This document shows positions 2,974 to 26,281 of a stretch of 64,000 bases of DNA, piece after piece. The stretch's first letter is position 1, and every line of letters begins with the position of its first letter. The notes under the pieces are model-generated. The model did not search any database, was not told where the DNA came from, and saw nothing but the letters and a program-made list of their open reading frames with translations. The stretch is from Candidatus Fermentibacteraceae bacterium (GTDB taxonomy: Bacteria > Fermentibacterota > Fermentibacteria > Fermentibacterales > JCC-6), in NCBI GenBank assembly GCA_016744855.1, contig JADGDO010000004.1, positions 163,006 to 227,005 of the forward strand, read 5' to 3'. The translations under genes were made by a program, and so were the position numbers.

Positions 2974-3040
2974 CAATACAAGCGCCTTTACCGCAACCTG
3001 CTTTTATGCTATCATTTGTTATAGAAACAGGGAGGTTGCT

Positions 3041-3931: not shown

Positions 3932-3957
3932 AAATCCTCTCGCACTCGGAGTCTATT

Positions 3958-5070
3958 ATGAAAACACTGATTCTGCTATCATCTTTCGTAGTTTTATCAG
4001 GATGCTCTGACCAGGCAGAACCACCCGGACAGATTTCCAGTGAGAGTACTGAGTTAGAAGTTCTTGTTGTTTCAGACACTATCGGTGTTGAACTTGGAGA
4101 TTCGCTCTACATGTTTGGCGCAATCGAAACAATCACGTACGATGCTAATGGGAACATCGCTGTTCTGGATATGGTTAATTCCAATCTCAGGATTTTTTCT
4201 CCGGATGGGGAGCATCTGCGAACCATAGGCAGAAGGGGAAATGCTCCCGGCGAGTTTCAGCGACCAATGGGAATGGTTCTTCTTGGAAACAACATTCTCG
4301 CAGTAATGGATCCTCGAGGAGAAGGTTTAACTGGGATAGATTCAACCTACACCCAAATCGGTGTTCTTCTTGATATTCACAGTAATGTTCACTTGGGAAT
4401 GTCTGCTTCAGGCTTGTCGGACATTGTAGCATTAAGGGTAGTTGAGAGTTCGCCTGACGATCCAGGGTTCCCGATTGTGATAGGCAGATACAGCATGTCC
4501 GCTGACCCTGATGTTGTATACTGGGTGAAGAACTATCCAATGGCTTCAGTCGAAGATCTCAAGGTAGCTATGCAGGATTTTTTTAATCTCTCGTGGACTG
4601 CAGACAGAAACAGCGGAGAGGTCTATATAGCACCTTATGAAAACAACAGATATCTTGTGTATCATTTCTCCGTGGAAGGTGATCTTCTTAACACCATAGA
4701 GCTTGATATACAGCAAGTACCCAGAACAGAAGAAGAGATTGCCGATGAAGCCGCGTATCTCAGGGCCCGGCTTACAGCTTTAAATGGAAGAGATATGGGC
4801 ATTGATTTGGAGCCATACCCCACTCGTCGTTCGATTACAGGCCTGGGTGTTGCCAGCGATGGGAATCTCTGGGTGAGGAGAGGGACGGAAGATGAAGCAC
4901 TTCTTGACCTCTGGACCCCGGAGGGAGAATTAGTTAAAAGCTATACCCTTCCCGGATCTTCACTTTCTTGGAATTTCACCTTTTGTTCTGAAGGAATACT
5001 GGCTTTCGATGAAAACCCCAAAGACTTTCAGAGGGTTTTTCTGGTTGAATCGCCGTCTGCTATGGAATAG
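3958..5070 (+). CDS. lipoprotein with predicted 6-bladed beta-propeller
   Basis: Starts with a lipoprotein signal peptide (MKTLILLSSFVVLSGC, lipobox LSGC, acylated C16). The rest reads like the 6-bladed beta-propeller/NHL-type lipoproteins common in the FCB group. Blade-like segments include ITYDANGNIAVLD, LRIFSPDGEHLRTIGRRG, GNAPGEFQRPMGM and, near the end, LGVASDGNLWVRRG and DLWTPEGELVKSY. Such proteins sit on the periplasmic or outer face and usually bind ligands or partners; no catalytic motif is visible. It lies 26 bases after the diguanylate cyclase gene on the same strand and may be co-transcribed, but no functional link can be claimed. Confidence 0.75.
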   Translation: MKTLILLSSFVVLSGCSDQAEPPGQISSESTELEVLVVSDTIGVELGDSLYMFGAIETITYDANGNIAVLDMVNSNLRIFSPDGEHLRTIGRRGNAPGEFQRPMGMVLLGNNILAVMDPRGEGLTGIDSTYTQIGVLLDIHSNVHLGMSASGLSDIVALRVVESSPDDPGFPIVIGRYSMSADPDVVYWVKNYPMASVEDLKVAMQDFFNLSWTADRNSGEVYIAPYENNRYLVYHFSVEGDLLNTIELDIQQVPRTEEEIADEAAYLRARLTALNGRDMGIDLEPYPTRRSITGLGVASDGNLWVRRGTEDEALLDLWTPEGELVKSYTLPGSSLSWNFTFCSEGILAFDENPKDFQRVFLVESPSAME

Positions 5071-5123
5071 AGATCTCTCAGAAGGCGTACTATCTCTGTA
5101 ACACTTTTTAAAGGAGTAGAGAT

Positions 5124-6356
5124 ATGAAAAGCGCCTTACTATTACTAGCCCTTACAACACTAACCCTTGCCTCGGCCTCGTTTGAAACGGCAGTTAACAA
5201 TGTTGCTGAAATGGTCTGGAACAACAAAGTTACCAGAGTTGCATCCAACTTCGGTCTGGATGTAGTTAATGTAACATGGGAAGATACAGGCAGGTACAGC
5301 GGTTCATGCTGGGGTCCTAATATTTCCGACATGACTATTCAGGTGCACCATGGAGATCGCGATTCAGAGATGCTCAGCTGCATGCCTGTTATAAGGTTTC
5401 CGAATTTCCACGATCTCACTGCAGATGTAAATCCGGAAGAATTCTACCTTCTGGCAGGCAATGAGAGTGGAAATGAGCTTGAACCTGTTAGTCTTACTGA
5501 CTATGTGGATAACATCAGAGATTATCTTCACGACGGAGATAGCTGGGGTGGACGGGGTAACAGTCTTCTTTGTGACCGCGACAGTGTTGTTCTTGTCAGT
5601 GCACAAGCTGTATTCCTGCCCATTGAAGAGGACGGGGAAGCTGTTTTCAATCCGGTTCTTTACAACTATCAGAGTTATGAGGGAAGCCCCGGTGTTCTGG
5701 CTATTCTTGCGACCCGTGAGGGAACCAGTGCTACAATCATAGACAACAGCTCTGAATACAATGCGGACTACTATTCATGGGGACAGAGGCTTTACTTCAA
5801 TGAAGACGGAGAAAGAGCAAGTCTGACCGGTTCCAGAATCTCTGATTTTCTTGAAAATCCAGAAAACCTGAGCGACCTCGGTGGTGACCATATGGAAGCG
5901 GCCGGGGAAGAGGGTCTGAATATGGTAATGCTTATCCAAATCCCCCTAAGACAGAAGGAAAGACAGGAAATGTGGTTCGAGTGCGAGACCACTGCAATGC
6001 CCTCCTCTGATTGTGCCACCGGAGAAAGTGTAGCTTTCAGAACCTCAGATGTGGAAGCTGCTGTAATCGGCCACGGCGAGCTTGAAGGTCCATTCAGGGA
6101 AATAGATGGCCTTCCCATCGTCCGTGACGAGAGATTCCCTATAAGAGTTACTGTTCAGTTCTACAAAGCAACTTCCAATGGTGTTGCTACAGATGGTGAT
6201 ATTGCTGAGATAGCAGCACAGATCAGCCGTGTATATGATGATGCAACTTACGTTGGTTCACTTGTCTGCCCTGAGGAAAAAATTGTAAGACCGACTGACT
6301 GGGATAGATCCACCGTTGCAGTTTCACTCAAGAAAAAGATTAGTCTTTTCTGGTAG
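5124..6356 (+). CDS. secreted protein of unknown function
   Basis: I do not recognise a family. The 410-residue product has a clear Sec signal peptide (about residues 1-19, ending near ASASF) and no further membrane segment, so it should be periplasmic or secreted. The mature part is acidic with scattered cysteines, including pairs that could form disulfides (SCWGPN, LSCMPV, LLCDRD, ECETT, LVCPEE). The start ATG has an AAAGGAG ribosome site 6-7 bases upstream. A strong terminator follows the stop codon, so this is the last gene of its transcript. The preceding lipoprotein gene ends 53 bases upstream. Confidence 0.72.
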   Translation: MKSALLLLALTTLTLASASFETAVNNVAEMVWNNKVTRVASNFGLDVVNVTWEDTGRYSGSCWGPNISDMTIQVHHGDRDSEMLSCMPVIRFPNFHDLTADVNPEEFYLLAGNESGNELEPVSLTDYVDNIRDYLHDGDSWGGRGNSLLCDRDSVVLVSAQAVFLPIEEDGEAVFNPVLYNYQSYEGSPGVLAILATREGTSATIIDNSSEYNADYYSWGQRLYFNEDGERASLTGSRISDFLENPENLSDLGGDHMEAAGEEGLNMVMLIQIPLRQKERQEMWFECETTAMPSSDCATGESVAFRTSDVEAAVIGHGELEGPFREIDGLPIVRDERFPIRVTVQFYKATSNGVATDGDIAEIAAQISRVYDDATYVGSLVCPEEKIVRPTDWDRSTVAVSLKKKISLFW

Positions 6357-7147: not shown

Positions 7148-7705
7148 ATGGAGACATTTCTTGCAGAAACTCAGGAACAGTGGAGAGAATGGCTCCAAAA
7201 AAACCATGACAGCTGTCATGAGATCTGGCTTGTTTTCTGGAAAAGACACACGGAAAAACAGTGCATAAATTATGATTTGTCGGTTGAAACTGCTATCTGT
7301 TTCGGCTGGATAGACAGCCTGCTTAAATCCGTAGATGAAGACAGTTATGCAAGGAAGTTCACTCCCAGAAGAGGGAAGAGCAGCTGGTCTGCACTTAACC
7401 GTGAGAGAGCCCTCGAAATGATAGGCTCGGGAGCAATGACTGAACCCGGCATGGAGGCTGTCAAAACAGCAAGAGAGAATGGTTCATGGTACCTGCGTCC
7501 CCAAGAGGTGGAGATGCCCCTCGAGCTGGAAGATTTGTTAGACAGTAATCCTGAAGCCGCTCTTTTTTTTGCAGAGCTGGCACCATCTTACAGAAAACAC
7601 TACATGGGATGGGTGGGCGAGGCCAAGAAGCCGGAGATCCGTCTTAAGAGGGCAGAAGAGTCAGTTCGCCTCCTTGCAAATCACTCAAAGCTTCCACTTA
7701 AATAA
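7148..7705 (+). CDS. YdeI/OmpD-associated family protein
   Basis: A 185-residue cytoplasmic protein matching the YdeI/OmpD-associated family. Conserved-looking stretches are the N-terminal METFLAETQEQWREWL, the core IWLVFWKRH, ETAICFGWIDS, ARKFTPRRGKSSWSALN and the C-terminal YRKHYMGWVGEAKKPE. Members have been linked to resistance to bacteriocins or peptides, but the biochemical role is unknown. The reading frame is open from 7112, but the ATG at 7148 has GGAGG 7 bases upstream and matches the usual family start, so it is chosen. Convergent with the GNAT gene on the other strand. Confidence 0.82.
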   Translation: METFLAETQEQWREWLQKNHDSCHEIWLVFWKRHTEKQCINYDLSVETAICFGWIDSLLKSVDEDSYARKFTPRRGKSSWSALNRERALEMIGSGAMTEPGMEAVKTARENGSWYLRPQEVEMPLELEDLLDSNPEAALFFAELAPSYRKHYMGWVGEAKKPEIRLKRAEESVRLLANHSKLPLK

Positions 7706-13208: not shown

Positions 13209-13298
13209 TAATATAGTTTCAAGAAATCAACAGTGCTACCAAGCAGATGCTCTGAATTTTGTATGTTCAGTACATACATGGAAAGGACACTTCAAGGA

Positions 13299-14411
13299 AT
13301 GACACTTAATAAATACACACCGGCTGACATTCAGGGCATATTCAGTAAAACCCCCGACAAGGATACTCTTGTTCAATTCCTGAAAACACAAGACCCTGAT
13401 ATTGTAGAGGCCGTCAGAGCTGCTGCTGAAGAAACCCTTCTTAAATATTGTGGTAACAATGTTTACTACAGAGGGTTAATTGAATTCTCAAACAGTTGTG
13501 CTCTGGACTGCGCTTACTGTGGTATCAGAAGATCAAACACCAAAGTAGTCAGATATACAGTTTCAGAAGATGAAATTATTAAAGCTTCCAGATGGTGTGC
13601 CGATGTACATTACGGTTCACTCGTTCTTCAATCAGGCGAGAGACACGACGATCAGTTCATTGATTTTGTGGAAAGAGTCACAAAGAAGATCAAGCAGGCA
13701 ACCGTTTCATCAGTTCTTCCCGAGGGCCTAGGAGTAACACTTTGTGTTGGAGAGCACACCCTCGAGACCTACAATCGTTTCAGAGCAGCTGGAGCTCACA
13801 GATACCTTCTTAGAATTGAAACAACCAATGAAAAACTCTTCAAATCCATTCATCCGACAGAGCAGAACCTTGATTCCAGACTTCAGTGCCTTGATTACTT
13901 GAAAAGAGCGGGATTTCAGGTCGGAACCGGTGTAATGATAGGGCTTCCCGGTCAGACCCCGGAAATGCTTGCAGATGATCTTCTGTTCTACAAGAAGTAC
14001 GATTTCGATATGTTCGGCATGGGTCCATTCATCCCCCACATGGACACCCCGATGGGCAGACTAAAAGTGATGTCCGACAAAGAGAGAACACACCTCGGTC
14101 TTATGATGATAGCTCTTACCAGGCTTCTTACAAAAGACACAAATGTAGCGGCGACAACGGCACTTCAGGCTCTCGACCCAGTCGGCAGGGAGAAAGGTCT
14201 TTCATTCGGAGCCAATGTTCTTATGCCCCAGCTAACACCTACCGAATTCAGAGAAAGTTACCTTCTTTATGAAAACAAACCCTGCTTAGACGAGGAAAAA
14301 GAAGACTGCCTCACCAGCCTCACTAAAAAAGTGGAAACAGTTGGTAGAGTGGTTGCCCAGGACCAATGGGGAGACTCAAAACACTTCACTGCCCGAACAA
14401 GCAACAGCTAA
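13299..14411 (+). CDS. hydE: [FeFe]-hydrogenase H-cluster maturase HydE (radical SAM)
   Basis: Radical SAM enzyme that, with HydF and HydG, builds the diiron site of [FeFe]-hydrogenase. The cluster motif CxxxCxxC is at C67, C71 and C74 (CALDCAYCG), preceded by YYRGLIEFSNSC as in HydE. GTGVMIGLPGQT and FGMGPFIPHMDTP are typical of HydE and its close relative PylB. The frame is open from 13233; the ATG at 13299 gives 370 residues, close to the family length, and has AAGGA about 11 bases upstream, so it is preferred, though 13278 or 13263 cannot be excluded. HydF, HydG and the hydrogenase are not in the window. Implies anaerobic H2 metabolism. Confidence 0.9.
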   Translation: MTLNKYTPADIQGIFSKTPDKDTLVQFLKTQDPDIVEAVRAAAEETLLKYCGNNVYYRGLIEFSNSCALDCAYCGIRRSNTKVVRYTVSEDEIIKASRWCADVHYGSLVLQSGERHDDQFIDFVERVTKKIKQATVSSVLPEGLGVTLCVGEHTLETYNRFRAAGAHRYLLRIETTNEKLFKSIHPTEQNLDSRLQCLDYLKRAGFQVGTGVMIGLPGQTPEMLADDLLFYKKYDFDMFGMGPFIPHMDTPMGRLKVMSDKERTHLGLMMIALTRLLTKDTNVAATTALQALDPVGREKGLSFGANVLMPQLTPTEFRESYLLYENKPCLDEEKEDCLTSLTKKVETVGRVVAQDQWGDSKHFTARTSNS

Positions 14412-14445: not shown

Positions 14446-14503
14446 AGTTCGAATTCTCTTCGGGGTGCCATACTGTAAGTTCTTCCAGTCACTGTAACTA
14501 ATT
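14446..14503 (+). repeat. 31-bp repeat family, copy 1 (shortened) with type I tail
   Basis: AGTTCGAA, six bases shorter than the standard unit in its middle, then CGGGGTGCCA, followed by the type I tail ACTGTAAGTTCTTCCAGT and CACTGTAACT. The tail recurs at 19388-19414 with about one change. This is the first copy, 34 bases after the hydE stop. Confidence 0.75.
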
Positions 14504-14674
14504 CTAGTCGGTTCAATATTTCTAATTAAGAACTGAGAAGAAACTTTCAATTCCATGAGAATTTAATGCACATTCTTCGGAAAACATACTTTTACAATTC
14601 ACATCACTACAACAAGTGGAACAAAATGCGAAAATGCATATAGAAGAAAGCATCTATTAAGCGAAAGGAAAATC

Positions 14675-15181
14675 TTGATATCTCTTGTTATGACTCTTTG
14701 TGGATTCCCATTCTTGGTGACTGATTCTGTCTTACCAAACTTTGATGATTCTTTTGATATGGATGCTGGGTCAGCAGAAGTATTCTTTTGTCATGAATCC
14801 CCAGTGTTTGAAGGCACTCATTATTCACTTCTCTTAAGTGGAGGACCATTGATGTATACTGATTCCTTCAGGGAGATGTGTTACTGGGGTGGTGGTGCTG
14901 AATTGGAGTTGAGAAGGTACAAGACTGATGATCTTGCAGGATTCTTTCTTGGTAGCTTTACAAACGCCAAAGCAATGCGGAAAGAGAATTCCGATAGAAG
15001 AGAGGCAGTGACAATTGGTCTTAAATTTGGCTGGAAAATAGACTTTCACGATTATGGTATCCCCTTTGACATTGAGCCATACTGCTACCCTGCAATACTG
15101 GTTCATAATGATAGTGATGAGGATAATGGATTCACACCTCATTTCATTTTTGGTTTAGGAATGAGGATACCTGTTCACTAA
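14675..15181 (+). CDS. small exported beta-rich protein, possibly outer-membrane
   Basis: A 168-residue product with a short N-terminal hydrophobic signal (MISLVMTLCGFPFLVTDSV) and alternating beta strands ending in FIFGLGMRIPVH, as in small outer-membrane barrels. Family not recognised. TTG at 14675 has AAAGGAA 4-5 bases upstream; the ATG at 14690 would lose the signal-like start. It is the first single-gene unit of the accessory region, bracketed by copies of the 31-bp repeat at 14446 and 15230. Confidence 0.55.
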   Translation: MISLVMTLCGFPFLVTDSVLPNFDDSFDMDAGSAEVFFCHESPVFEGTHYSLLLSGGPLMYTDSFREMCYWGGGAELELRRYKTDDLAGFFLGSFTNAKAMRKENSDRREAVTIGLKFGWKIDFHDYGIPFDIEPYCYPAILVHNDSDEDNGFTPHFIFGLGMRIPVH

Positions 15182-15229
15182 CCGCGAGATCTGAAAATGC
15201 TCTATTCAGGTGTTTTACTTATTCTGTGA

Positions 15230-15280
15230 AGTTCTAAGAGAGTCCAATATGGGGTGCCAAACTGAACAACTTCTACAGAG
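15230..15280 (+). repeat. 31-bp repeat family, copy 2 with type II tail
   Basis: The unit is 15230-15260: AGTTCTAAGAGAGTCC then AATATGGGGTGCCAA. It is followed by the type II tail GAACAACTTCTACAG. The same tail type follows the copy ending at 21797. Confidence 0.8.
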
Positions 15281-15398
15281 TACTTGAACTTTTTCTTCAA
15301 ATACTTCGAAAAGTATTTGCCAATTCCATTTGCACCATATAGACAGAAATTAAGCATCTAAGCATTCTACTATTATCTCAAATAGTAAAGAAATAGTA

Positions 15399-15427
15399 TT
15401 GACATCTCCTATTGTTATGCATAGTCT
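15399..15427 (+). promoter_or_regulatory. possible sigma-70-like promoter upstream of the FG-GAP gene
   Basis: TTGACA at 15399-15404, 17 bases, then TAGTCT at 15422-15427. The -35 is perfect and the -10 is poor. It is about 130 bases upstream of the start codon at 15558. Confidence 0.3.
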
Positions 15428-15557
15428 AAAGTAGATACGAATTGATCGACTCGAGATATGGTCTGTAACAGATATAATTGAGTTCGTTGCTTATATGAAG
15501 AAGCAAACTGAACAATGAGTGACGGTTGTCTAGGGGTATTTAGAAAAGAGGTATCTG

Positions 15558-17435
15558 ATGTACAAGTATTTTATTTTTACTGCAACTCTTCTTCTATTCA
15601 CAAGTATTGCCGGTGCAAACGCTACTCAGGTTGCCTGGTACAAAGGCGGGGGAGTGCCGGGTCCTGTTTACTACTGGCACTCGCAGAGTGCTAACTTCGA
15701 TCAATCATCGAACATCTCTTTCTGGGATTCGGGAACTGGAGGAGTTCTCCCTGCACTCCGCCTATCAATTGCAGAAAGATTTCTAATCGAAGAAACAGGT
15801 GAAGACTGGCCCGTTTCGGTTTATTCCTCTGATGTCGACGGCGATGGAGATCAGGATGTTATTGCTCTCTTCGGGTTCATGGGCGAAGCTCAACAACTGC
15901 TCTGGTGGGAGAATCTCGATGGAGCAGGCTCTTCATGGGATCAGCATGTGATAGATATCGGCTTTCCCATGGGGCGGAATGTTATTTCTGCAGATATCGA
16001 CGGAAACGGTACGATGGATGTCGCTGCCGCGGGGCAATATGACTTAGCGTGCTGGTGGTCCAATACTGACGGTACCGGTACCGTCTGGGAAGAACATCTG
16101 ATAAGTGAGGCTGCAGACTGGCTGGAGTGTGCTGATTTAGACGGAGATGGGGATTTGGATTTCGCCCTCTGTTCATGGTGGTCAGGCACATTTCTCTGGT
16201 GTGAGAATATCGATGGAACCGGGGAAACCTGGGTGGAACATGAGATAGCTAGTAATATGGTAGGTGCCATGATCGGGAATCCATGCGATGTAAACTCTGA
16301 TGGATACCTGGATTTCATCGCACTGGAATGTATCAACAGCAAGTTGTACTGGTGGGAGAACGAGGACGGTACAGGTGCTACATGGATTGAGCATGTGATC
16401 AGCACATCTTTAGTGAATCCAGAGTCTATGCATGCTGGCGATATCGATGGTGACGGCGATATCGATGTTTCAGCAGTCTCCGGAGAGACTGACGAAGTGG
16501 CCTGGTTCAGGAACGAGGATGGATTGGGGGCTGAGTGGACGGAAGTGCTTGTTGCTGAATTGACGATACCTGGACTTAAACATCTGTATGATGTGCACAC
16601 TTCAGACCTGGATGCGGATGGTGATATTGACATCTGTTCGCTGGTCCACACTTCAGGTGGATGGGTTTTCTGGTGCGAGAACATTGATGGGACAGGAGAG
16701 AGCTGGGAAGTACATTCATTTCAACTTTATGGCAATGCTCCATTATCGGTTCATCCATCCGATATCAATGGAGACGGAAAAAACGACCTCATCACCTGCT
16801 TATCAGCCGGGCACGAGGTTGCCTGGTGGGATCTTCATGAACACGGTGATTGTTCATCCGAAGGTTATCTTGAATCCAGCATTCTTGATACAGATGAGGA
16901 CTTCACCAATTATCAAATCATGTCTTGGCAATCCGAGGTCCCTTCTGGAACTGAGCTCAGTGTGCAGATAAGAACTTCAGATGACTATAGTGACATGGGT
17001 GACTGGTCTCAAAATCTCTATTCCTCCCCTGTATACGTGGATGATGTTGTGGGAGACGGAGAGCAATACATTCAGTACAGAGTCAATATGGAAACTTCGA
17101 ATCCCGATGCTACGCCATGGCTTTCCTACATACAGCTCTCATGGAATGGACTGGGAATCAGTGACGGTAACTTGGACAGCACGCGGATTCTTTCGGTTTC
17201 CTCCAATCCTCTTGTTTCGGGTTTTTCTTCTGTCGTTATAACCTGCGATAACCCGATGATTATGGAACTTTCCGTTTTTGATCTTTCGGGAAGAATGGTT
17301 TTAGGTGTACCGGAGAAACAGTACGAAGCTGGGAACAGTACTGTGAGTATTGAGAATATTCCTCCCGGTATCTACATGTGCTTGCTTAATGGAGAGGATT
17401 TCCAGGAGAGTATCAGATTCGTTTTGACTGAATAG
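15558..17435 (+). CDS. secreted FG-GAP/VCBS repeat protein with type IX sorting domain
   Basis: A 625-residue secreted protein: signal peptide (about 1-22, ending near GANA), then a propeller of seven FG-GAP/VCBS-type repeats with calcium-binding loops such as DVDGDGDQDV, DIDGNGTMDV, DLDGDGDLDF, DVNSDGYLDF, DIDGDGDIDV, DLDADGDIDI and DINGDGKNDL. Each is followed by a WWENxDGTG-like strand. The C-terminal ~75 residues (ELSVFDLSGRMVLGV, then IENIPPGIYMCLL) match the Por/type IX secretion sorting domain, so it should cross the outer membrane through a SprA-type channel. GAGG lies 7 bases before the ATG. It occupies its own unit between repeat copies. Confidence 0.88.
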   Translation: MYKYFIFTATLLLFTSIAGANATQVAWYKGGGVPGPVYYWHSQSANFDQSSNISFWDSGTGGVLPALRLSIAERFLIEETGEDWPVSVYSSDVDGDGDQDVIALFGFMGEAQQLLWWENLDGAGSSWDQHVIDIGFPMGRNVISADIDGNGTMDVAAAGQYDLACWWSNTDGTGTVWEEHLISEAADWLECADLDGDGDLDFALCSWWSGTFLWCENIDGTGETWVEHEIASNMVGAMIGNPCDVNSDGYLDFIALECINSKLYWWENEDGTGATWIEHVISTSLVNPESMHAGDIDGDGDIDVSAVSGETDEVAWFRNEDGLGAEWTEVLVAELTIPGLKHLYDVHTSDLDADGDIDICSLVHTSGGWVFWCENIDGTGESWEVHSFQLYGNAPLSVHPSDINGDGKNDLITCLSAGHEVAWWDLHEHGDCSSEGYLESSILDTDEDFTNYQIMSWQSEVPSGTELSVQIRTSDDYSDMGDWSQNLYSSPVYVDDVVGDGEQYIQYRVNMETSNPDATPWLSYIQLSWNGLGISDGNLDSTRILSVSSNPLVSGFSSVVITCDNPMIMELSVFDLSGRMVLGVPEKQYEAGNSTVSIENIPPGIYMCLLNGEDFQESIRFVLTE

Positions 17436-17548
17436 ATCAAGAGCTGCTGGTCCAGAGCGCGTGCATAAGGCACACTTGTTTACAGTAAAGTGTCTTGTTT
17501 GAGTTGTGAAAGTGTTACTGTTTTGTGGTGGTTTTGTGTCATTTAAGA

Positions 17549-17617
17549 TTAAGCAGCGCAACGGTTAAGATTGTACCTCCTCTTTTATTTAAAAGGGTCA
17601 ACCTGAGCGCTGCTTAA
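17549..17617. repeat. long-range inverted repeat
   Basis: TTAAGCAGCGC at 17549-17559 is perfectly complementary to GCGCTGCTTAA at 17607-17617, 47 bases apart. Inside the arms, GGTT and AACC can extend the pairing with a few mismatches. There is no T-run, so it is not a plain terminator. It could be a folded transcript end or a recombination or transposon end; role unknown. Confidence 0.6.
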
Positions 17618-17662
17618 GAATTACTTTTTACTTTCAATCTTATGACATGCTAATACGTTTCC

Positions 17663-17844
17663 AATCGGCTCTCTACTCACTGATTAGTTCTACTGTATTA
17701 GCGCATCTATATCCTTATGAGAGGGACTTTCAGGATAAGACCTTGAAATGGCTTGATTATCACGCTGCAAGGGCTTTACCCAGCTCGTGGAGCTTTCCGG
17801 TCCAGGAGAGAAATCCGTTCCAACTGGAAATCATTAGGGGTGCC
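17663..17844 (+). repeat. duplicated ~180-bp block, copy A
   Basis: Closely similar to 21614-21797. In the last ~100 bases, from AAATGGCTTGATTATCACGC to the GGGGTGCCA core, I count about 10 differences by eye; the first part is more diverged and has indels. The block ends in the same GGGGTGCCA core as the 31-bp repeat, so it looks like a long form of that element. Confidence 0.8.
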
Positions 17845-17949
17845 AGAAATTAAAAAGCACACAGTGCTCTGACTCTAAAGTTATAGTTTTTTTGAGCTTT
17901 CTACAGGTACTGGCAGTCCATGTGAAGTGATGAAACCAAGCCTGGTTTT

Positions 17950-18969
17950 CTAGGTGACTTTTTTTATGTCCATTATTCGCTTGTACTCCTGATCCAGAGA
18001 ACCAACTGGCAGTTCCTTCAGCAGCTCAATAAAGTATGCCTCGAAACTCTGTTCCGCAGACTTGGGGAATTTACCGAAGTAATCGAAAAGAACCACCGAC
18101 AGCATATGAGAGCCTCCGTCATGTTCGGCAAAGTACTTCAAGGGATCCTTTTCCAGACCTATCTTGTGACAGATATGGATCGCCATTGCCTCCACGACAT
18201 TTTCTTCGATAAAGCCAGTCATGGTACTGTAACCGAACCTGGGATCCTTTGTCTCAAAGGCATGCTGTAAAAGAGGATCTTTCCCCAATCCCTCAAGTTC
18301 GGTTTCCAGATGGCTGGCATCATATGGGGGGTGAAACAATTCATGCACGGCAATTCCCAGTGAAGCTTCCCTCGGAAATACCACATCCGTAATGTATCTG
18401 GGACCACATATCTTGATTCCGTGAGGCGCAGCAAAGGTGCACAGATATACAGTGACACTCTCAGGAGCACTGCCCCGCCCAAGCATCAGCTCGATCTCAC
18501 CGTCCAGATGGAAGGTGCTGGCATAGGCTTGAAATCTACGCTGTTTCTGTTTTATCAGGGGGAGCCTTTCGTCTTTCCAGTACTCACGAAACCCGCTGTT
18601 TTCGAGCTCATCTATCAACGGTAGCAATGTTCCGAAAAGCTCTGCCTTGGCATCCCAGGTATCTTCATTGTAATAGCTGTATCGGCTGAAGCTTTCTCTA
18701 AGCAGCTCCGTATCAGACAACATGCGAAGAATGCTTCTTCTCTCGAATCGCGGAACGGCTGAAACCACAAGACTCATAAGAGGACCCAGCATCGTGCTAC
18801 CGTTTTTCTCTACTGAGTTTTCTAGGCTCTTCATGGCAGAGGTGCTTAAAAGTGGCCTGAAACGCTCATATATTCCCTTATGCCAGTTTGTATACAGATC
18901 GCTCCCGGTAAGGATGTTAACGAAGTTCAGCAGGTCTAGATTGTAGGAATAATGCACTTTGAATCGCAT
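17950..18969 (-). CDS. putative zinc metallopeptidase-like protein (HELFH)
   Basis: A 339-residue protein with a gluzincin-like zinc motif HELFH (residues 209-213, in GIAVHELFHPPY) and a downstream EENVVEAMAIH segment (about 255-265) whose glutamates could give the third zinc ligand. This suggests a metallopeptidase; the family is not recognised and no substrate can be named. The ATG at 18969 has GGGAG 7 bases upstream. The frame stays open upstream through a TTG at 19044 to a stop near 19084, but that stretch encodes no convincing signal peptide. Without one the protein would be cytoplasmic, unlike its exported neighbours, so a lost 5' end is possible. It lies opposite to the repeat orientation. 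Confidence 0.62.
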   Translation of the reverse strand: MRFKVHYSYNLDLLNFVNILTGSDLYTNWHKGIYERFRPLLSTSAMKSLENSVEKNGSTMLGPLMSLVVSAVPRFERRSILRMLSDTELLRESFSRYSYYNEDTWDAKAELFGTLLPLIDELENSGFREYWKDERLPLIKQKQRRFQAYASTFHLDGEIELMLGRGSAPESVTVYLCTFAAPHGIKICGPRYITDVVFPREASLGIAVHELFHPPYDASHLETELEGLGKDPLLQHAFETKDPRFGYSTMTGFIEENVVEAMAIHICHKIGLEKDPLKYFAEHDGGSHMLSVVLFDYFGKFPKSAEQSFEAYFIELLKELPVGSLDQEYKRIMDIKKVT

Positions 18970-19685
18970 GAATGAACTCCCATCTTTCTCTATTAAATTG
19001 AGAACATTTACTCGCTTCAGATTTACATTCTCATTGGCAACCAAACAGGCACAGGCAACATCTGGATTAGTTTTTCCTACCGTTCAAACACAATTCGGAT
19101 TCACCAAATACTGCTGTTTGCTCTGAATCATGCTGGCATGTATTGATCTCGTCAACACCGTTGAAGGCAATTCCGAACAGGGGATGCAGGTTCATCACCT
19201 ATGCGGTGTGGTGGATTAGGCAGGCAATACTGCAGACCCTGGTTTAAAAAGTTCTGAAAGCGTTCGGCATGACGTGCCTATAATTCCTTATTGATCAGTT
19301 CGAAAAGCATCCACTATGGGGTACCCCAAACAGCATTATCGAACTGCTTGCCTGTAGTTCGAAACGTATCTAATACGGGGTGACAAACTGTAAGTTCTTC
19401 CAGTGACTGTAACTTATTACAGCGCAGTTCGAAACATGTCCACTATGGGGTGCCAACAGCAAGTTCTTCCAGTCGCTGTAAATTGTTCCAGTTCAAAAAG
19501 TATCCACTATAAGGTGCCTATAACTTCTTGTAACATAGTTAGAAAAATACCTCTCATGGGGTACACATCTGACCTTTAGTATGAATTATTATATTTATGC
19601 AGGAACTTTGATAACAGTGAAGGATATAGGTGCAAGAGGATTATAAGTTCTAAATGACTTGTTATAGTGAAAAGGAGGGAACCAA
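18970..19685. other. gene-free stretch carrying the repeat array
   Basis: From 19250 to 19567 the sequence is mostly an array of six 31-bp repeat units. The parts before and after hold no credible gene. The start region of the next gene carries a strong ribosome site (AAAGGAGGG). Confidence 0.7.
19250..19567 (+). repeat. array of six 31-bp repeats
   Basis: Units begin at 19250 (degenerate), 19297, 19356, 19426, 19490 and 19537, all on the plus strand, with start-to-start distances of 47, 59, 70, 64 and 47. Each reads close to AGTTCGAAAAGTATCC followed by ACTATGGGGTGCCAA. The spacers after units 3 and 4 share the type I tail AAGTTCTTCCAGT. Spacers vary in length and units differ from one another, so this is not a CRISPR. 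Confidence 0.85.
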
Positions 19686-21386
19686 ATGACAGTAGTAATT
19701 ACTATGATTTTATTTCTTGTGTCTGCATCATCTGTATCTATTGTGGAGCCTGTTAACGGTGAAACCTATGCTGCTGACTGGTTACCAATATGCGGGATTG
19801 TCGAGAATGAGAACATTGTTCCAGATTCAGTTGTCTACACCCTGAATGGTGAGCAGGTTACACAGCTTTCAAGGCTTAATACTGACTGGCCTACCTACAT
19901 GCAAAGTAACCTTCATAATGGTTTTTCTGAATCACCTGCTCCAGTTACCAATGAAATACTTTGGACTGCTCCGGTTACCAGCTGTCTTCATGAATTTCCC
20001 AATCCAATAGTTGCAAATGGAGTCGTTTACTACCCTTCCAACATGGGAGACGATAAGCTGCACGCTTTAGATGCGGCAACCGGTCAGGAGCTTTGGGCAG
20101 TGCTGGTGGGTTACTCGGATGATCCACCAACATATGACGATGGATACCTCTATCAGGCATCTGATTCGATATACTGTTTAGATGCCGCGAATGGTTCTAT
20201 TCAATGGACTTTCGGTGATGCTGATGATGCGGGAAGCACTCCTTGCGTATCTGGGGACAGGGTGCTTGTAGGTACACATGTAAGCTGGCTTGATAAAATC
20301 AGCCACATTTTCTGCCTCAATAAGAACGACGGGGAAGTTATATGGGATAGAGAGTTTAATGGAGCACTGGTAAGCTGTTCCGGGGTTGACCAGGGTGTTT
20401 TCTTTGTACCCACATTCGAAGGACCACTATATGCGATTGATGCGTATTCAGGTGATATTCTGTGGGAAAACGGTAATTCAGAAAGTGGCTTCTGGGATTC
20501 ATCACCAGTTATCGTTGAAGACTCGATATTTATCGGAAGCATAGATGGCGACGTTTTCTGCTTCGATGCTGAAACAGGTGATGAAATCTGGAGCCTGTTT
20601 CTGGACAGTTCTAGTGTAACAAGCACCCCCGCAGTTTATGAAGACATGATCATAGTTGGAACACAGGGTGAGCAGGGAGAGATTGATGGCATGGTTGCAG
20701 CTTTGAATAGATCGGATGGTTCAACAGTTTGGTCCATATCTAATACTACCCACGGTTCATTCGCAGTTGCTGATGGTATGGTTTTCTGGGGTAATACTCA
20801 ACCGCCGTATTTTGCTCTTTTTGCTGCCAATGCTGCCACCGGTGATATTATCTGGGAATATGAGATTGCTTCAGGACCCTACGGCCTTACATCAACACCC
20901 TCCATTACGGATGGCGTTGTTTACTATGCTGGAACCGATGGTTTACTTTATGCTTTCGGAACTGGTCTTCAATACACATACCAGGGCGACTTGTTTGCAC
21001 AGAGTGGGGAGAATGAACTAATTGTAACCTCCTTTGACAATGCAGTTCCTGTAGCCGCAGATACCATTAGTTTTACTGTCACAGAAACTGGTATAGAAGC
21101 AGCTGACAATGGTGGGCTGCATCTGGCAGTGGGACAAAATCCATTCACCTCATCAACCTCGATTTCCTTTGAGTTAGAGAATCCCTCTATCATCTCAGTA
21201 CAGATATTTGATCTTGCCGGGCGAGAAGTTTCAAGACTCTTTGAGGGGCAGCTCGCTCAGGGTACTCACAATCTAGATTGGAATGCAACAGATGATAGAG
21301 CGCAGCAGCTATCCTCTGGCTTGTATTTGTGTCGTATTCAATCTGGAAGTATTAGCGAAACTATTGGATTGTGTCTATTGAAGTAG
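19686..21386 (+). CDS. secreted PQQ-type beta-propeller protein with C-terminal sorting domain
   Basis: A 566-residue exported protein: signal peptide at the N terminus (about 1-17), then PQQ/BamB-type propeller repeats such as KLHALDAATGQELWAV, SIYCLDAANGSIQWTF, IFCLNKNDGEVIWDRE, LYAIDAYSGDILWENG, VFCFDAETGDEIWSLF and ALNRSDGSTVWSI. The last ~80 residues (VQIFDLAGREVSRLFEG, SSGLYLCRIQSG) are a type IX/FlgD-like C-terminal domain, so secretion by the SprA-type system is likely. It has no catalytic PQQ-dehydrogenase motif and is probably a binding or surface protein. AAAAGGAGGG lies 6 bases upstream of the ATG. It stands between repeat copies. Confidence 0.87.
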   Translation: MTVVITMILFLVSASSVSIVEPVNGETYAADWLPICGIVENENIVPDSVVYTLNGEQVTQLSRLNTDWPTYMQSNLHNGFSESPAPVTNEILWTAPVTSCLHEFPNPIVANGVVYYPSNMGDDKLHALDAATGQELWAVLVGYSDDPPTYDDGYLYQASDSIYCLDAANGSIQWTFGDADDAGSTPCVSGDRVLVGTHVSWLDKISHIFCLNKNDGEVIWDREFNGALVSCSGVDQGVFFVPTFEGPLYAIDAYSGDILWENGNSESGFWDSSPVIVEDSIFIGSIDGDVFCFDAETGDEIWSLFLDSSSVTSTPAVYEDMIIVGTQGEQGEIDGMVAALNRSDGSTVWSISNTTHGSFAVADGMVFWGNTQPPYFALFAANAATGDIIWEYEIASGPYGLTSTPSITDGVVYYAGTDGLLYAFGTGLQYTYQGDLFAQSGENELIVTSFDNAVPVAADTISFTVTETGIEAADNGGLHLAVGQNPFTSSTSISFELENPSIISVQIFDLAGREVSRLFEGQLAQGTHNLDWNATDDRAQQLSSGLYLCRIQSGSISETIGLCLLK

Positions 21387-21401
21387 ATCTATGACGAGTA
21401 A

Positions 21402-21438
21402 AGGGTTGCTAGCGCACGCTCCGTGCGCCAACAACCCT
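21402..21438 (+). terminator. strong hairpin after the PQQ-propeller gene
   Basis: AGGGTTG (21402-21408) pairs with CAACCCT (21432-21438), and inside it GCGCACG (21412-21418) pairs with CGTGCGC (21422-21428), with a CTA/CAA internal loop. It lies 15 bases after the stop codon but has no T-run, so a Rho-independent terminator is only one reading; it could also be a processing or recombination structure. Confidence 0.5.
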
Positions 21439-21587
21439 GTGTTGAATATCGCGAAATGGGACTTTATGCTCCAGAGTTTGTTGAGATCGGGAGATTTTTT
21501 TGTGTTACCGATCGTACTGTTAGAAATAGAATGAAGGCATTGGTAGAGAAAAACCTAACTGTAAATCAGTTCGAAAGTATCCAATAA
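21403..21587 (+). pseudogene. fragment of a helix-turn-helix protein
   Basis: A frame open from a TAA near 21400 to TAA at 21585-21587 encodes a winged-helix-like end: EIGRFFCVTDRTVRNRMKAL followed by VEKNL. This resembles the HTH of Fic-type or AlbA-type regulators. No start codon with a ribosome site is visible; the only ATG (21456) leaves 43 residues. The final codons and the stop are supplied by the 31-bp repeat beginning at 21568. Probably the truncated 3' end of a lost gene. Confidence 0.4.
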
Positions 21588-21597
21588 TGGTGCCTGA
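21568..21597 (+). repeat. 31-bp repeat family copy (30 bp)
   Basis: AGTTCGAAAGTATCC then AATAATGGTGCCTGA. It follows and truncates the HTH fragment. Confidence 0.75.
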
Positions 21598-21613
21598 TGA
21601 TAATCGAATCTTC

Positions 21614-21797
21614 AATCTGCTATCTACTTACAAATTAGTTCTACTGTACCAAGGCATCTATACTCCTACGAGAAGGACCCTGCAGTAAACACCCCCAAAA
21701 TGGCTTGATTATCACGCTGCAAGGGCTTTCCCCAGCTCATGGAGCTTACCAGCCCACAATAGAAATCCGTTCCAACTGGAAATCATAAGGGGTACCA
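21614..21797 (+). repeat. duplicated ~180-bp block, copy B
   Basis: Second copy of the block at 17663-17844, ending in GGGGTACCA and followed by the type II tail AGTAGAACAACTTCT. It contains an indel relative to copy A, which breaks the reading frame that is open in copy A. Confidence 0.8.
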
Positions 21798-21910
21798 AGT
21801 AGAACAACTTCTATTGAGCAGTAGAGCATTTTCTACCAAGGTCAGGAAGAGCCTACTTCGAGGTAAAAAGCCAAATCCAGTAGAATTACTTCTACAATAT
21901 AGTAGAACTT
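21798..21910. repeat. cluster of small GTAGAA...TTCTAC hairpins
   Basis: Three short inverted repeats in about 100 bases: GTAGAA-caac-TTCTAT just after 21799, GTAGA with TTCTAC around 21821-21836, and GTAGAA at 21880-21885 with TTCTAC at 21890-21895. A further GTAGAA is at 21902. The same motif trails repeat copies near 15265 and 23264. Function unknown. Confidence 0.5.
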
Positions 21911-21923
21911 CCTCTATGATAAT

Positions 21924-21953
21924 GGTTGATAAGCGTACACTACGGGGTGCCAA
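21924..21953 (+). repeat. 31-bp repeat family copy (30 bp)
   Basis: GGTTGATAAGCGTAC then ACTACGGGGTGCCAA. The right half is intact and the left half has diverged. Confidence 0.7.
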
Positions 21954-21999
21954 CATGATGTTTTCTGCGGGTCTGGTGAAATGCGCTCTAAGTTTAACA

Positions 22000-22479
22000 C
22001 TAGTGTGAATACTCCGCCGGTATTACCCCAATGGGGATTACCATAGGATTGAATCCAGGAGCAACAGCTTCATCACCCTCATATTCTTCGATTGAAATAT
22101 CGACAGAGATAGTGTCACCACTCAGACTTATGCTATGTCCGTTATAGCTATCCTCATATGCGGCATTCCTGAAGAAAACTAGCAACATTCCTTCTTCTGG
22201 GAGAAACTCTTCAAGGTGTGGAGTCCATTCATAATAGTAGTTAACCGCATAAAAAACAGAATCTATGTCATCGGCACTTTCAATCAGATAGAGATAGTCT
22301 GATGAAGGTATTTTGGGCGTGATATCAATCTCTCCATCGATACATTCATGTTCAATTATCTCTAACACTTCAAAATCCAGCACTATCTGTCCTGTATAGT
22401 GTACTGTTTTTGAATCAGGACCGAAAAGACACCCACAGAATGTTAAAAGAACGATGAGAAGAGTAATTCCAAGTTTCAC
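22000..22479 (-). CDS. small lipoprotein of unknown function
   Basis: A 159-residue lipoprotein: signal peptide MKLGITLLIVLLTFCGC with the acylated cysteine at C17 (or C15), then an acidic, beta-rich domain ending in proline-rich PMVIPIGVIPAEYSH. Family not recognised. It starts at GTG 22479 with GAGGAGG 7 bases upstream. The gene runs against the orientation of the surrounding repeats (21924 and 22560). Confidence 0.7.
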   Translation of the reverse strand: MKLGITLLIVLLTFCGCLFGPDSKTVHYTGQIVLDFEVLEIIEHECIDGEIDITPKIPSSDYLYLIESADDIDSVFYAVNYYYEWTPHLEEFLPEEGMLLVFFRNAAYEDSYNGHSISLSGDTISVDISIEEYEGDEAVAPGFNPMVIPIGVIPAEYSH

Positions 22480-22559
22480 AAGAGCACCTCCTCAGACAAT
22501 ATAGCAATATTGAAGCATTGAAACATTCTTGTATCCTTCTATCTGGAATGAGTTAAAAT

Positions 22560-22590
22560 AGTTCCGAAAGTATCTGCTACGGGGTGCCAA
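22560..22590 (+). repeat. 31-bp repeat family copy upstream of the toxin-antitoxin pair
   Basis: AGTTCCGAAAGTATC then TGCTACGGGGTGCCAA; a full 31-bp unit about 55 bases upstream of the toxin-antitoxin operator. Confidence 0.85.
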
Positions 22591-22644
22591 AGAGGATTCT
22601 CGAACCGGTCGATTTGCTGGATTTGTTGTAGTGTGCATACATAA

Positions 22645-22675
22645 CGTTGCAATATGCAACGCTATGGTGTATATT
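22645..22675 (+). promoter_or_regulatory. toxin-antitoxin promoter with palindromic operator
   Basis: A perfect palindrome, CGTTGCA-ATA-TGCAACG at 22645-22661, overlaps the -35 box TTGCAA (22647-22652). A 17-base spacer leads to the -10 box TATATT (22670-22675), and the antitoxin ATG follows at 22700. An operator overlapping the -35 fits the usual autorepression of type II toxin-antitoxin operons by the antitoxin or the complex. Confidence 0.75.
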
Positions 22676-22699
22676 GTGAGTATGCAAGGGAGGTGGAAT

Positions 22700-22918
22700 A
22701 TGGCTACTGCTGTTAGGGTTTCTGACCTGCTTCTCAAGGAAGCTAGGCTTGTTAGTTCCGTTGAAAACAGGTCGGTTACCGGCCAGATAGAGTATTGGGC
22801 CAAGATAGGTAAGTGCGCTGAAGAGAATCCCGATCTGACTTACAATCTTATTAAGGACATTCTTTTTGGTCTTGAGGAGCTTGAGCACTGCGAAGTGTCC
22901 GAGTACAAGTTTAGCTGA
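22700..22918 (+). CDS. ParD-like antitoxin
   Basis: A 72-residue protein of the ParD-like antitoxin family. It begins MATAVRVSDLLLKEARLVSS, a ribbon-helix-helix-type DNA-binding start, followed by the conserved-looking RSVTGQIEYWAKIGK and a C-terminal tail (DILFGLEELEHCEVSEYKF) that would cover the toxin. It should neutralise the RelE/ParE-type toxin encoded 6 bases downstream and repress the operon through the palindrome at 22645. The frame is open from 22631, but GGGAGG 6 bases before the ATG at 22700 fixes the start. Confidence 0.85.
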   Translation: MATAVRVSDLLLKEARLVSSVENRSVTGQIEYWAKIGKCAEENPDLTYNLIKDILFGLEELEHCEVSEYKFS

Positions 22919-22924
22919 TCTGTC

Positions 22925-23203
22925 ATGAAAGTGACTCAGACCCGGCTGTTCGCCAAGAAAGTTAAAAGGTTTTCTGTTCAGGAGAAGACCATTCTTGATG
23001 CTGAGATCAGGAAGATCATCACTAATCCATCCATCGGCCAGGAGAAGAGGGGAACACTGAAAGGTGTTTTCATTCACAAGTTCAAGATTAATACCATTCA
23101 GTTTCTTCTAGCATACCGGTGCGATACGCAGCTTCTCCAATTAATAGTACTCGGTCCTCACGAAAACTACTACAGAGACTTGGATAACTACCTAAAGGGG
23201 TAG
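22925..23203 (+). CDS. RelE/ParE-superfamily toxin
   Basis: A 92-residue toxin of the RelE/ParE fold: MKVTQTRLFAKKVKRFSV at the N terminus, ILDAEIRKIITNPSIG for the helix hairpin, GTLKGVFIHKFKINTIQFLLAYRC for the beta sheet and LGPHENYYRDLDNYL at the end. Members cut ribosome-bound mRNA (RelE, YafQ) or inhibit gyrase (ParE); the sequence does not settle which. It is coupled to the antitoxin, and repeat copies flank the pair at 22560 and 23225, so the pair forms one unit of the cassette-like region. Confidence 0.85.
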   Translation: MKVTQTRLFAKKVKRFSVQEKTILDAEIRKIITNPSIGQEKRGTLKGVFIHKFKINTIQFLLAYRCDTQLLQLIVLGPHENYYRDLDNYLKG

Positions 23204-23224
23204 ACCGCCTTTCAATCTCAATCT

Positions 23225-23255
23225 GGTTCCAAAAGTGTCCACTACGGGGTACCAA
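23225..23255 (+). repeat. 31-bp repeat family copy after the toxin gene
   Basis: GGTTCCAAAAGTGTCC then ACTACGGGGTACCAA; a full 31-bp unit 21 bases after the toxin stop. A GTAGAACTTCTTCC segment follows. Confidence 0.85.
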
Positions 23256-23305
23256 AGCGAATGGTAGAACTTCTTCCACAAAACAGTTGAAATCCTTCTA
23301 CAGAG

Positions 23306-23336
23306 GGTTCGAAACGTATCCAATATGGGGTGCCAA
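23306..23336 (+). repeat. 31-bp repeat family copy
   Basis: GGTTCGAAACGTATCC then AATATGGGGTGCCAA; full length, 81 bases after the previous unit. Confidence 0.85.
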
Positions 23337-23356
23337 GTAGATTTTTTTTTACATAT

Positions 23357-23387
23357 AAATCGAACCGTATCCTCTTTGGGTCTCAGT
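23357..23387 (+). repeat. degenerate 31-bp repeat copy
   Basis: AAATCGAACCGTATCC then TCTTTGGGTCTCAG; the left half is recognisable and the right half has decayed. Confidence 0.5.
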
Positions 23388-23443
23388 GCTCCAGATTAGT
23401 AAATCTTTCACGATGCTGTGAGGACAGACTGTAGCTTTCTTTG

Positions 23444-24034
23444 TCAGTACCACAGTGCGGTTTTAATCCCTCCCCATGTATGTCTATCAAGCTCAAGAGA
23501 GTTCCCAAAGGCAGTAACGAATAGCTCATATATGTACCATTGAATATTCCCTCCATTTCCCGGGTAAGCTGCCTGCATATGAGCGTAGAATGTGAAACCA
23601 ATCCAGGTGTCTACGGGAGGAGCTTGAATACTAACATCAATTGGATCTGAGGTGGAGGTGCCCAGGTTCAAATAGGGATCAAAGAACAGATACTCTTCTT
23701 CATCAGGAAAGTAGTGCATTTGAATATATGCGATACCAACCCCATTCACATAAGCCGCCAGGTCATGTTCGATATGTACAAGGAGAGAATCTGTACCGTC
23801 TGGAACAAAATACCAGACTTCAGGATCTGACAGCGAACTCATGGTTGCGGTGCAAGAGGTGGGTGACTGATACCCGTATATGGTTTCATTTATCCATGCA
23901 CCACTGTTTGTATTGAATTGCCATTCCTCGCTGAGCCATCCATCGGGAAGCGATTCAAACTGAGTCTCGAATACGGTGCAGGTATCGGCTAATGCCAATG
24001 AACAGAGCAAGAACATTAAAACTAAGAGCTTCAT
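23444..24034 (-). CDS. secreted beta-sandwich-like protein of unknown function
   Basis: A 196-residue exported protein with signal peptide MKLLVLMFLLCSLALA, then FETQFESLPDGWLSEEWQFN, the opening typical of jelly-roll or concanavalin-like secreted modules, with LLVHIEHDLAAYV and WIGFTFYAHMQ strands. It has no C-terminal sorting domain and no catalytic motif. AGAGG lies 8-9 bases before the ATG. It runs against the repeat orientation, between copies at 23306/23357 and 24139. Confidence 0.65.
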   Translation of the reverse strand: MKLLVLMFLLCSLALADTCTVFETQFESLPDGWLSEEWQFNTNSGAWINETIYGYQSPTSCTATMSSLSDPEVWYFVPDGTDSLLVHIEHDLAAYVNGVGIAYIQMHYFPDEEEYLFFDPYLNLGTSTSDPIDVSIQAPPVDTWIGFTFYAHMQAAYPGNGGNIQWYIYELFVTAFGNSLELDRHTWGGIKTALWY

Positions 24035-24138
24035 TTTACTACCTCTGAGATATTACTCAACCTACTGTTGATATTATGCTTCCTCCTCGATAAGAAATCA
24101 ACCATCATCATAAGTCAAAGTAAATGGAACTACTTGCA

Positions 24139-24173
24139 GAAATTTCCGATTGCATTCACTACTAGGTACCAAA
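24139..24173 (+). repeat. degenerate repeat copy at the right end of the accessory region
   Basis: GAAATTTCCGATTGCATTC then ACTACTAGGTACCAA; only the ACTA...GGTACCAA end is well kept. It is the last copy I can see in the window. Confidence 0.45.
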
Positions 24174-25375: not shown

Positions 25376-26281
25376 TTAACCTTTAGTGAGTTGCTTTTTT
25401 CTAAACAATCTTCCATCGGTTACAGCAAGAGAAGCGAAGATAAGCACCATTCCGATAATAACATTCTGGCTCAAACTTTCACCCAGAACAGCGACTCCCA
25501 GGAAAATTGCGTTGACGGGTATTAGGAAAGTTACAAGCAGCAGGTTTGTCGGGCCCGTTAGAGCGAGAGTTTTGAAATAAAACACATAAGCCACAGTAGT
25601 ACTCAGAAGGGTTAAACCGGAGAGAGCGGCAAGAGTCTGCCCACCAATGTGAAGGCTTAGCGGATCTTCAAAAATAAATACGAGTGGAATCATCATTACT
25701 GCAGCACCGGTAAGTACACCAGTTGCAACCACTAGTGGTTCCATATTTCTGAATCTTCTTCCGTAGATTGCAGAGAAAGCGTAACACATTGCTGCACAAA
25801 GCATTGCAACTTGTCCTATTGATTTAAGTCCCGAAGAGCCGGCGGTATCTAATCCTATGAGAATGCCTACACCTGCCAGTCCGAGGATTACACCTGTTAT
25901 CCGCAGGGGTGTCATTCTTTCTTCGGAGGTAAGGAAATGTGCCAAAACTACACTGAAAAGAGGAGCTGATGCATTAAGGATAGAAGCAATGCTTGTGTTT
26001 ACATGCTGCTGTCCCCAGATGATAAGGCTGAAAGGAATCAGATTATTAAGAGCTCCCATTACAAAAAAGGCTCTCCATGTTTTCCTGCATGAAGGCATTT
26101 TTTTTCCTGATGCGTATACGAGTCCCGTAAGTATAATTGCTGAAAATCCGACTCTGATAAGTACAATTGTCAGTGGGGTAATCTCTCGAAGGGTGAGTTT
26201 AATAAAGAAGAACGAGGCTCCCCATAACACGGAAAGCAGTCCTATGTAGATGTATGCCCTAAGAGACATCGACTGATTCAT
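25376..26281 (-). CDS. DMT/EamA family exporter
   Basis: A 301-residue inner-membrane transporter with about ten membrane helices in two EamA repeats. The first repeat opens with LLSVLWGASFFFIKLTLREITPL and the second with LCAAMCYAFSAIYGRRF; LASILNASAPLF-like and TFLIPVNAIFLGVAVLGE are the usual EamA signatures. Relatives export amino acids or other metabolites; the substrate is unknown. AAGG lies 6 bases before the ATG. Divergent from the GNAT gene at 26466. Confidence 0.9.
   Translation of the reverse strand: MNQSMSLRAYIYIGLLSVLWGASFFFIKLTLREITPLTIVLIRVGFSAIILTGLVYASGKKMPSCRKTWRAFFVMGALNNLIPFSLIIWGQQHVNTSIASILNASAPLFSVVLAHFLTSEERMTPLRITGVILGLAGVGILIGLDTAGSSGLKSIGQVAMLCAAMCYAFSAIYGRRFRNMEPLVVATGVLTGAAVMMIPLVFIFEDPLSLHIGGQTLAALSGLTLLSTTVAYVFYFKTLALTGPTNLLLVTFLIPVNAIFLGVAVLGESLSQNVIIGMVLIFASLAVTDGRLFRKKQLTKG

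Follow-up and report, generated by a model that had tools for sequence, protein, structure and literature searches.

What assembles single genes between copies of one short, strictly oriented repeat, when the genes themselves point both ways? This question is raised by a locus in a 64,000-nucleotide stretch of DNA (the window), which is part of contig C52 of a 3.24-Mb draft genome of a marine Fermentibacterota bacterium. Comparison of the locus with related genomes leads us to regard the repeats as very probably attachment half-sites of a large serine recombinase (LSR), and the region as a cassette array that would work like an integron. What the sequences show is the single orientation of the sites, one distinct first site per array, breakpoints at the site core, LSR genes on the first site, a 5-bp shift between the two site forms, and relatives of the recombinase on tRNA-Arg genes.

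Architecture and distribution of the arrays

An earlier note on this DNA described at least thirteen copies of a 31-bp repeat, beginning at 14446. The copies are real, and the window holds about 15 of them (C sites), on the plus strand throughout; the copy at 14446, however, is not a 31-mer and represents a distinct 24-nt site (H). The conserved unit is the 31-mer, with unconserved flanks, and pairwise identity among C copies is ~70-80% over 31 bp. That all copies lie on the plus strand with genes in both directions between them, and that none occur elsewhere in the window, was upheld by a site matrix trained solely on 107 sites of other genomes. Scanning both window strands, it recovered 11 plus-strand sites, none on the minus strand and none outside 14.4-24.2 kb, compared to a chance expectation of 0.04 matches (mean of 100 simulated windows). 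Four weaker C copies have an identical layout. Sites, cassette genes and flanking genes are as follows.

13233-14411 (+), left flank outside the array, radical SAM protein, conserved in several species
14447-14470 (+), H site, GTTCGAATTCTCTTCGGGGTGCCA, read as attB-type left half; core GT at 14465-14466; first site of the array
14675-15181 (+), cassette gene, 168 aa, without Pfam match, possible exported or outer-membrane protein
15230-15260 (+), C site, 31-mer, read as attP-type left half; matrix match
15558-17435 (+), cassette gene, FG-GAP repeat exported protein, secretion-tail match weak
17816-17846 (+), C site, divergent, weaker copy, GTTC in C register; terminates a ~200-bp non-coding repeat
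17950-19044 (-), cassette gene, 364 aa, HELFH (HExxH), without Pfam match
19250-19280 (+), C site, divergent; matrix match
19297-19327 (+), C site; matrix match
19356-19386 (+), C site; matrix match
19426-19456 (+), C site; matrix match
19490-19520 (+), C site; matrix match
19537-19567 (+), C site, divergent, weaker copy
19686-21386 (+), cassette gene, PQQ/BamB-like beta-propeller with C-terminal sorting domain
21568-21594 (+), C site, 3 bases deleted, weaker copy, read directly
21768-21798 (+), C site, divergent, weaker copy; terminates the second copy of the ~200-bp repeat
21923-21953 (+), C site; matrix match
22000-22479 (-), cassette gene, predicted lipoprotein, small
22560-22590 (+), C site; matrix match
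22685-22918 (+), cassette gene, ParD-like antitoxin
22925-23203 (+), cassette gene, ParE-like toxin
23225-23255 (+), C site; matrix match
23306-23336 (+), C site; matrix match
23444-24034 (-), cassette gene, exported protein, without Pfam match
24142-24172 (+), C site, weak; matrix match; last recognised in the array
25376-26281 (-), right flank outside the array, EamA-family transporter, conserved in several species

The same architecture recurs at other loci. All 27 loci having both site forms contain exactly one H, at the first position, followed by C sites, and each of 112 further sites in 38 loci agrees in strand with the first site of its locus. Core-to-core cassette lengths (n=112) fall mainly into two classes, with 70 at 400-2500 bp and 32 at 44-81 bp. 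A cassette typically holds one gene or one toxin-antitoxin pair, and main reading frames of cassettes lie on both strands (42 and 32). Encoded in the cassettes are FG-GAP/beta-propeller proteins that are exported and bear sorting domains, toxin-antitoxin pairs (types including ParDE, HipA, VapBC, and AbiE), and proteins of unknown kind. For 108 cassette proteins, the 25 commonest of 48 families included no recombinase family. Arrays often terminate at contig ends.

The short class consists of mini-cassettes of 44-81 bp with the site included (n=32; e.g., window 19297-19567 and 23225-23336), whose body is often palindromic, e.g., GTAGAACAACTTCTAC; they are possibly att-only remnants. A non-coding sequence of ~180-200 bp recurs in copies ~80-90% identical, at 17646-17847 and 21613-21798 of the window and at about 7205-7395 (minus strand) of L036. 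Every copy terminates in a divergent C site, and the sequence is a putative non-coding cassette or RNA. Scans of the window against Rfam and for tRNAs gave no match, and a hairpin inside the 31-mer was dismissed as its pairing, judged by eye, was inconsistent.

The array seen in the earlier note is not the only site of copies in its genome: contigs C30, C74, C27, and C9 carry further ones, and there too the single orientation holds. At E <= 1, a sequence model of the repeat had matches in every one of the 13 genomes of this genus, with up to 33 per genome. With the threshold at E <= 0.001, matches remained in 12 of these and were also seen in most genomes of the sister genus g2 and in one genome of a third genus; two further genera had none. 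Restriction of the repeat to the genus, as suggested by an exact 13-mer search, was thereby overturned, the model search adding two sister genera. The genus comprises relatives of Candidatus Sabulitectum, and the repeat family is present in most of its species; the named records with the LSR are likewise Candidatus Sabulitectum, phylum Fermentibacterota. At many chromosomal loci (L110-L149), H stands beside unrelated genes as a 24-nt imitation of a tRNA 3' end without a tRNA gene.

Breakpoints and the recombinase at the sites

The earlier note had proposed that cassettes enter directionally at a recombination site. This is supported by cassettes shared between loci, whose breakpoints fall at the repeat core, and by the build of the arrays, each unidirectional with a single distinct first site. 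When homologous cassettes in differing contexts are compared, they agree closely within the cassette and at random level beyond it, and the change comes at the core GT; the crossover thus maps to GT within GGGGTGCC. Cassettes with a common right end are ~0.76-0.91 identical as far as the core, and their identity is 0.27-0.29 from position +6. For those with a common left end, the values are 0.24-0.27 to the left of the arm and 0.66-0.95 in the part that starts with the core. A given cassette can stand behind H in one species but behind C in a second (L115 vs L087, 96%; L130 vs L081, 93%). Counted from the G of the H core GT, left-flank homology between species ends at +4 to +6 in at least six species pairs (L034/L134, L073/L139, L087/L130, L113/L121, L117/L130, and L122/L136). 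One locus was found in three states, without an array in G006 (L140), with an LSR element in G002 (L111), and with an array start in G012 (L120), where the left end (L120) and the right end (L082) lie on separate contigs of one draft. L127, a candidate empty site, proved not clean.

At the window's own locus, H is present in eight species, with differing content. The lipoprotein cassette (22.0-22.59 kb) has an 86% identical copy in another species and at another locus, and the match extends through the C site at 22560. Two loci with flank genes and without H or C, L166 and L174, were considered as empty sites; neither is clean, because L166 has other genes between the two flank genes (RhuM-like, Fic-like, and ATPase genes at 2250-5527, with no array) and L174 lacks the right flank. 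G006 has the left flank of this locus, with the antiporter side and the radical SAM gene, on both C197 (L175) and C203 (L085); one of these contigs carries H and an array, and the other no detected site.

The earlier note hinted at a tyrosine integrase; the enzyme at the sites instead belongs to the large serine recombinases. A genus-wide search returned six LSRs of the clade, all six at an H (L110, L111, L116, L118, L119, and L124). These proteins of ~515 aa contain Resolvase, Recombinase, and zinc-ribbon domains, and their genes lie right of H, oriented towards it, with the final codons inside H. In G012 (L164) and G019 (L159) the LSR belongs to an element of ~8 kb that runs from H to C. The window contains no integrase, as had been noted, and no member of the LSR family was found in the window's own draft genome. 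The search was equally negative for 10 of the genus's 13 genomes, which are drafts that break inside arrays. Viral contigs searched for the LSR yielded no relative.

The likeness to a tRNA T-loop that the earlier note had pointed out is genuine and belongs to H, which equals a tRNA 3' end both in T-loop-to-CCA length and in sequence. No tRNA gene is found at the H sites of the genus, where H stands alone. Two LSR relatives from a sister genus (60% and 40% identity), by contrast, are situated directly at the 3' end of a genuine tRNA-Arg gene, and C sites follow the one of 40% identity.

Half-sites, proposed mechanism, and alternative explanations

H and C differ in the position of a GTTC motif relative to the core. 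Among 51 H sites, 43 have the motif beginning at -18, and among 125 C sites, 102 have it beginning at -23, while no start falls at -19 to -21. The motif is thus 5 bp closer to the core in H than in C. In serine integrase attachment sites, the zinc-ribbon motif of attB is 5 bp nearer the centre than that of attP (Rutherford et al. 2013, PMC3783163). Because the shift matches this published difference, H is read as an attB-type half and C as an attP-type half. The half-site right of the core is conserved in the LSR elements and weakly conserved in gene cassettes. Standard serine integrases require both half-sites, and the weak right halves of gene cassettes are the main gap of the proposed mechanism. 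Serine integrases also normally reject pairings other than attP with attB (PMC3783163). Repeated attP insertion would need an H that already bears a cassette, which counts against the mechanism. So do the lack of an LSR in the window's own genome and in most genomes of the genus, and the fact that no excised circle appeared in the assembled sequences.

The arrays could be built as follows. H, which imitates a tRNA 3' end from T-loop to CCA, would serve as the landing site and carry the attB-type left half. A cassette would begin right after the core GT and terminate in the 31-mer as its attP-type left half, after which the next core would come. We infer that cassettes pass through a circular intermediate, which as attP would recombine at H or at a later core, at an insertion point that would be preferred, and so be inserted in one orientation only. 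Each insertion would leave H leftmost and add one C site, which would give the order H, C, C, C regardless of gene direction. The recombinase itself is the first gene of some arrays (the ~8 kb LSR element); elsewhere it would have to act in trans, on cassettes that are free of recombinase genes. The array of the present genome may still be mobile.

Other origins of the arrays have to be weighed against this mechanism. When integron integrases turned up in the genome, our first idea was that the 31-mers are parts of attC sites in a CALIN, used by integrases encoded elsewhere in the genome. Two proteins of the genome exceed the integron integrase cut-off, and the cassettes, their toxin-antitoxin content, and the single orientation are integron-like traits. 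We abandoned the idea because sites and crossover differ, and consider it most unlikely: the crossover is at GT in GGGGTGCC and not at the G^TT of the R box, the enzyme linked to H and C is a serine recombinase, and the C19 integrase is adjoined by different repeats, which end in GTTA as attC sites do. Both genuine integrase loci (C13 and C19) are without C or H sites in their neighbourhoods, which is in accordance with the failure of the earlier note to match attC boxes. H resembles the 3' end of a tRNA in sequence as well as length, and units finish near CCA, both of which could alternatively mark RNA-mediated (reverse-transcribed) insertions ending in CCA. This idea was dropped because LSRs were found on H; with a serine recombinase rather than a reverse transcriptase at the sites, mixed gene orientations (42/32), and breakpoints that match the core GT, it is extremely unlikely.

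Passive dispersed 31-mers, between which cassettes are shuffled through homologous recombination, would account for repeats that are alike and for arrays that often finish at contig ends. An identity of ~70-80% over 31 bp is too little for efficient homologous recombination, the copies being too short and too diverged, and shuffling leaves the distinct H that is always first, the LSRs on H, and the 5-bp shift unexplained; we therefore regard it as very improbable. Tandem accretion, i.e., integrative elements that landed serially at a shared serine-integrase site, lost their recombinases, and are now decayed remnants, is unlikely. LSR elements of ~8 kb with H and C ends do exist, and SCC and ECC are large serine-recombinase islands that share one site (PMC6222049). 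However, the cassettes form compact size classes (70/112 at 400-2500 bp, 32 at 44-81 bp), hold mostly one gene or toxin-antitoxin pair, and lack a recombinase family within the limits of the 25 families considered above for their 108 proteins. Single-gene cassettes moreover recur intact at differing loci and positions, which decay does not predict.

Relation to known recombination systems

To our knowledge, no widely known system other than integrons accumulates single genes in one-way arrays. Integrons rely on tyrosine recombinases that act on folded single strands. Like integrons (IntI, attI, attC), the arrays described here open with a single site of a distinct kind, behind which every cassette has a recombination site at its end. 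Also shared are cassettes that mostly hold a single gene, an abundance of toxin-antitoxin genes, and the presence of several recombinase-free arrays per genome. They differ in that an LSR is at the sites, the crossover is at GT in a double-strand-type pair of half-sites, attC is absent, the recombinase gene travels as a cassette element, the landing site imitates a tRNA 3' end, and gene direction is mixed. No IntI adjoins an attI here, as those on C13 and C19 have no H or C nearby, and, judged by the crossover and the conserved 31-mer, the sites are not attC (RYYYAAC ... GTTRRRY, G^TT). The unidirectional cassettes behind one differing first site may be considered analogous to integrons and not members of them.

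A recombinase with Resolvase, Recombinase, and zinc-ribbon domains that is linked to the site, and the shifted outer motif, are what characterizes LSR attachment sites. Phage and LI/A118-type integrases are likewise zinc-ribbon LSRs whose attB and attP halves join at a central dinucleotide and whose attB and attP show the same 5-bp displacement of the outer motif (PMC3783163). In our case, however, multi-cassette arrays are built and the right half-site of cassettes is weakly conserved. SCC of staphylococci and ECC of enterococci (CcrAB at rlmH) share with the arrays large serine recombinases, direct-repeat att sites, and variable content at one chromosomal insertion site (PMC6222049). These islands carry their recombinase and span tens of kb, whereas the present cassettes are ~0.05-2.4 kb and recombinase-free and occupy several loci per genome, with sites beside other genes and not as a ccr element at rlmH. 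The sister-genus LSR relatives on the tRNA-Arg 3' end resemble elements that target tRNA 3' ends; the genus differs by its stand-alone 24-nt imitation without a tRNA gene. Targeting of tRNA genes is mostly the work of tyrosine integrases.

With LSR sites as the joints of one-way single-gene arrays, it seems likely that integron-style gene collecting arose a second time, with an unrelated enzyme, in this marine bacterium and its relatives. Specifically, we think it probable that an independently evolved cassette capture, in which an LSR acts in trans on recombinase-free single-gene cassettes at landing sites that imitate tRNA 3' ends, operates in three genera of one Fermentibacterota family. 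We found no description of serine-recombinase cassette arrays in the open-access literature, which is weak evidence of novelty because only this literature was covered. If the proposal is true, cassette stockpiling evolved more than once, and a simpler, double-strand mechanism is open to study. Given the 5-bp shift between H and C, an LSR of these elements and a pair of short sites would allow a direct test of the reaction. In uncultured marine bacteria, the loci can further serve as ready markers for mobile genes.

The two integron integrases above the family cut-off in the window's genome are encoded at 2764-3960 of L032 (C13) and 9876-11120 of L033 (C19). As the C19 integrase is flanked by toxin-antitoxin genes and by GTTA-ending repeats that resemble true attC sites, both types of cassette system seem to coexist in this genome.
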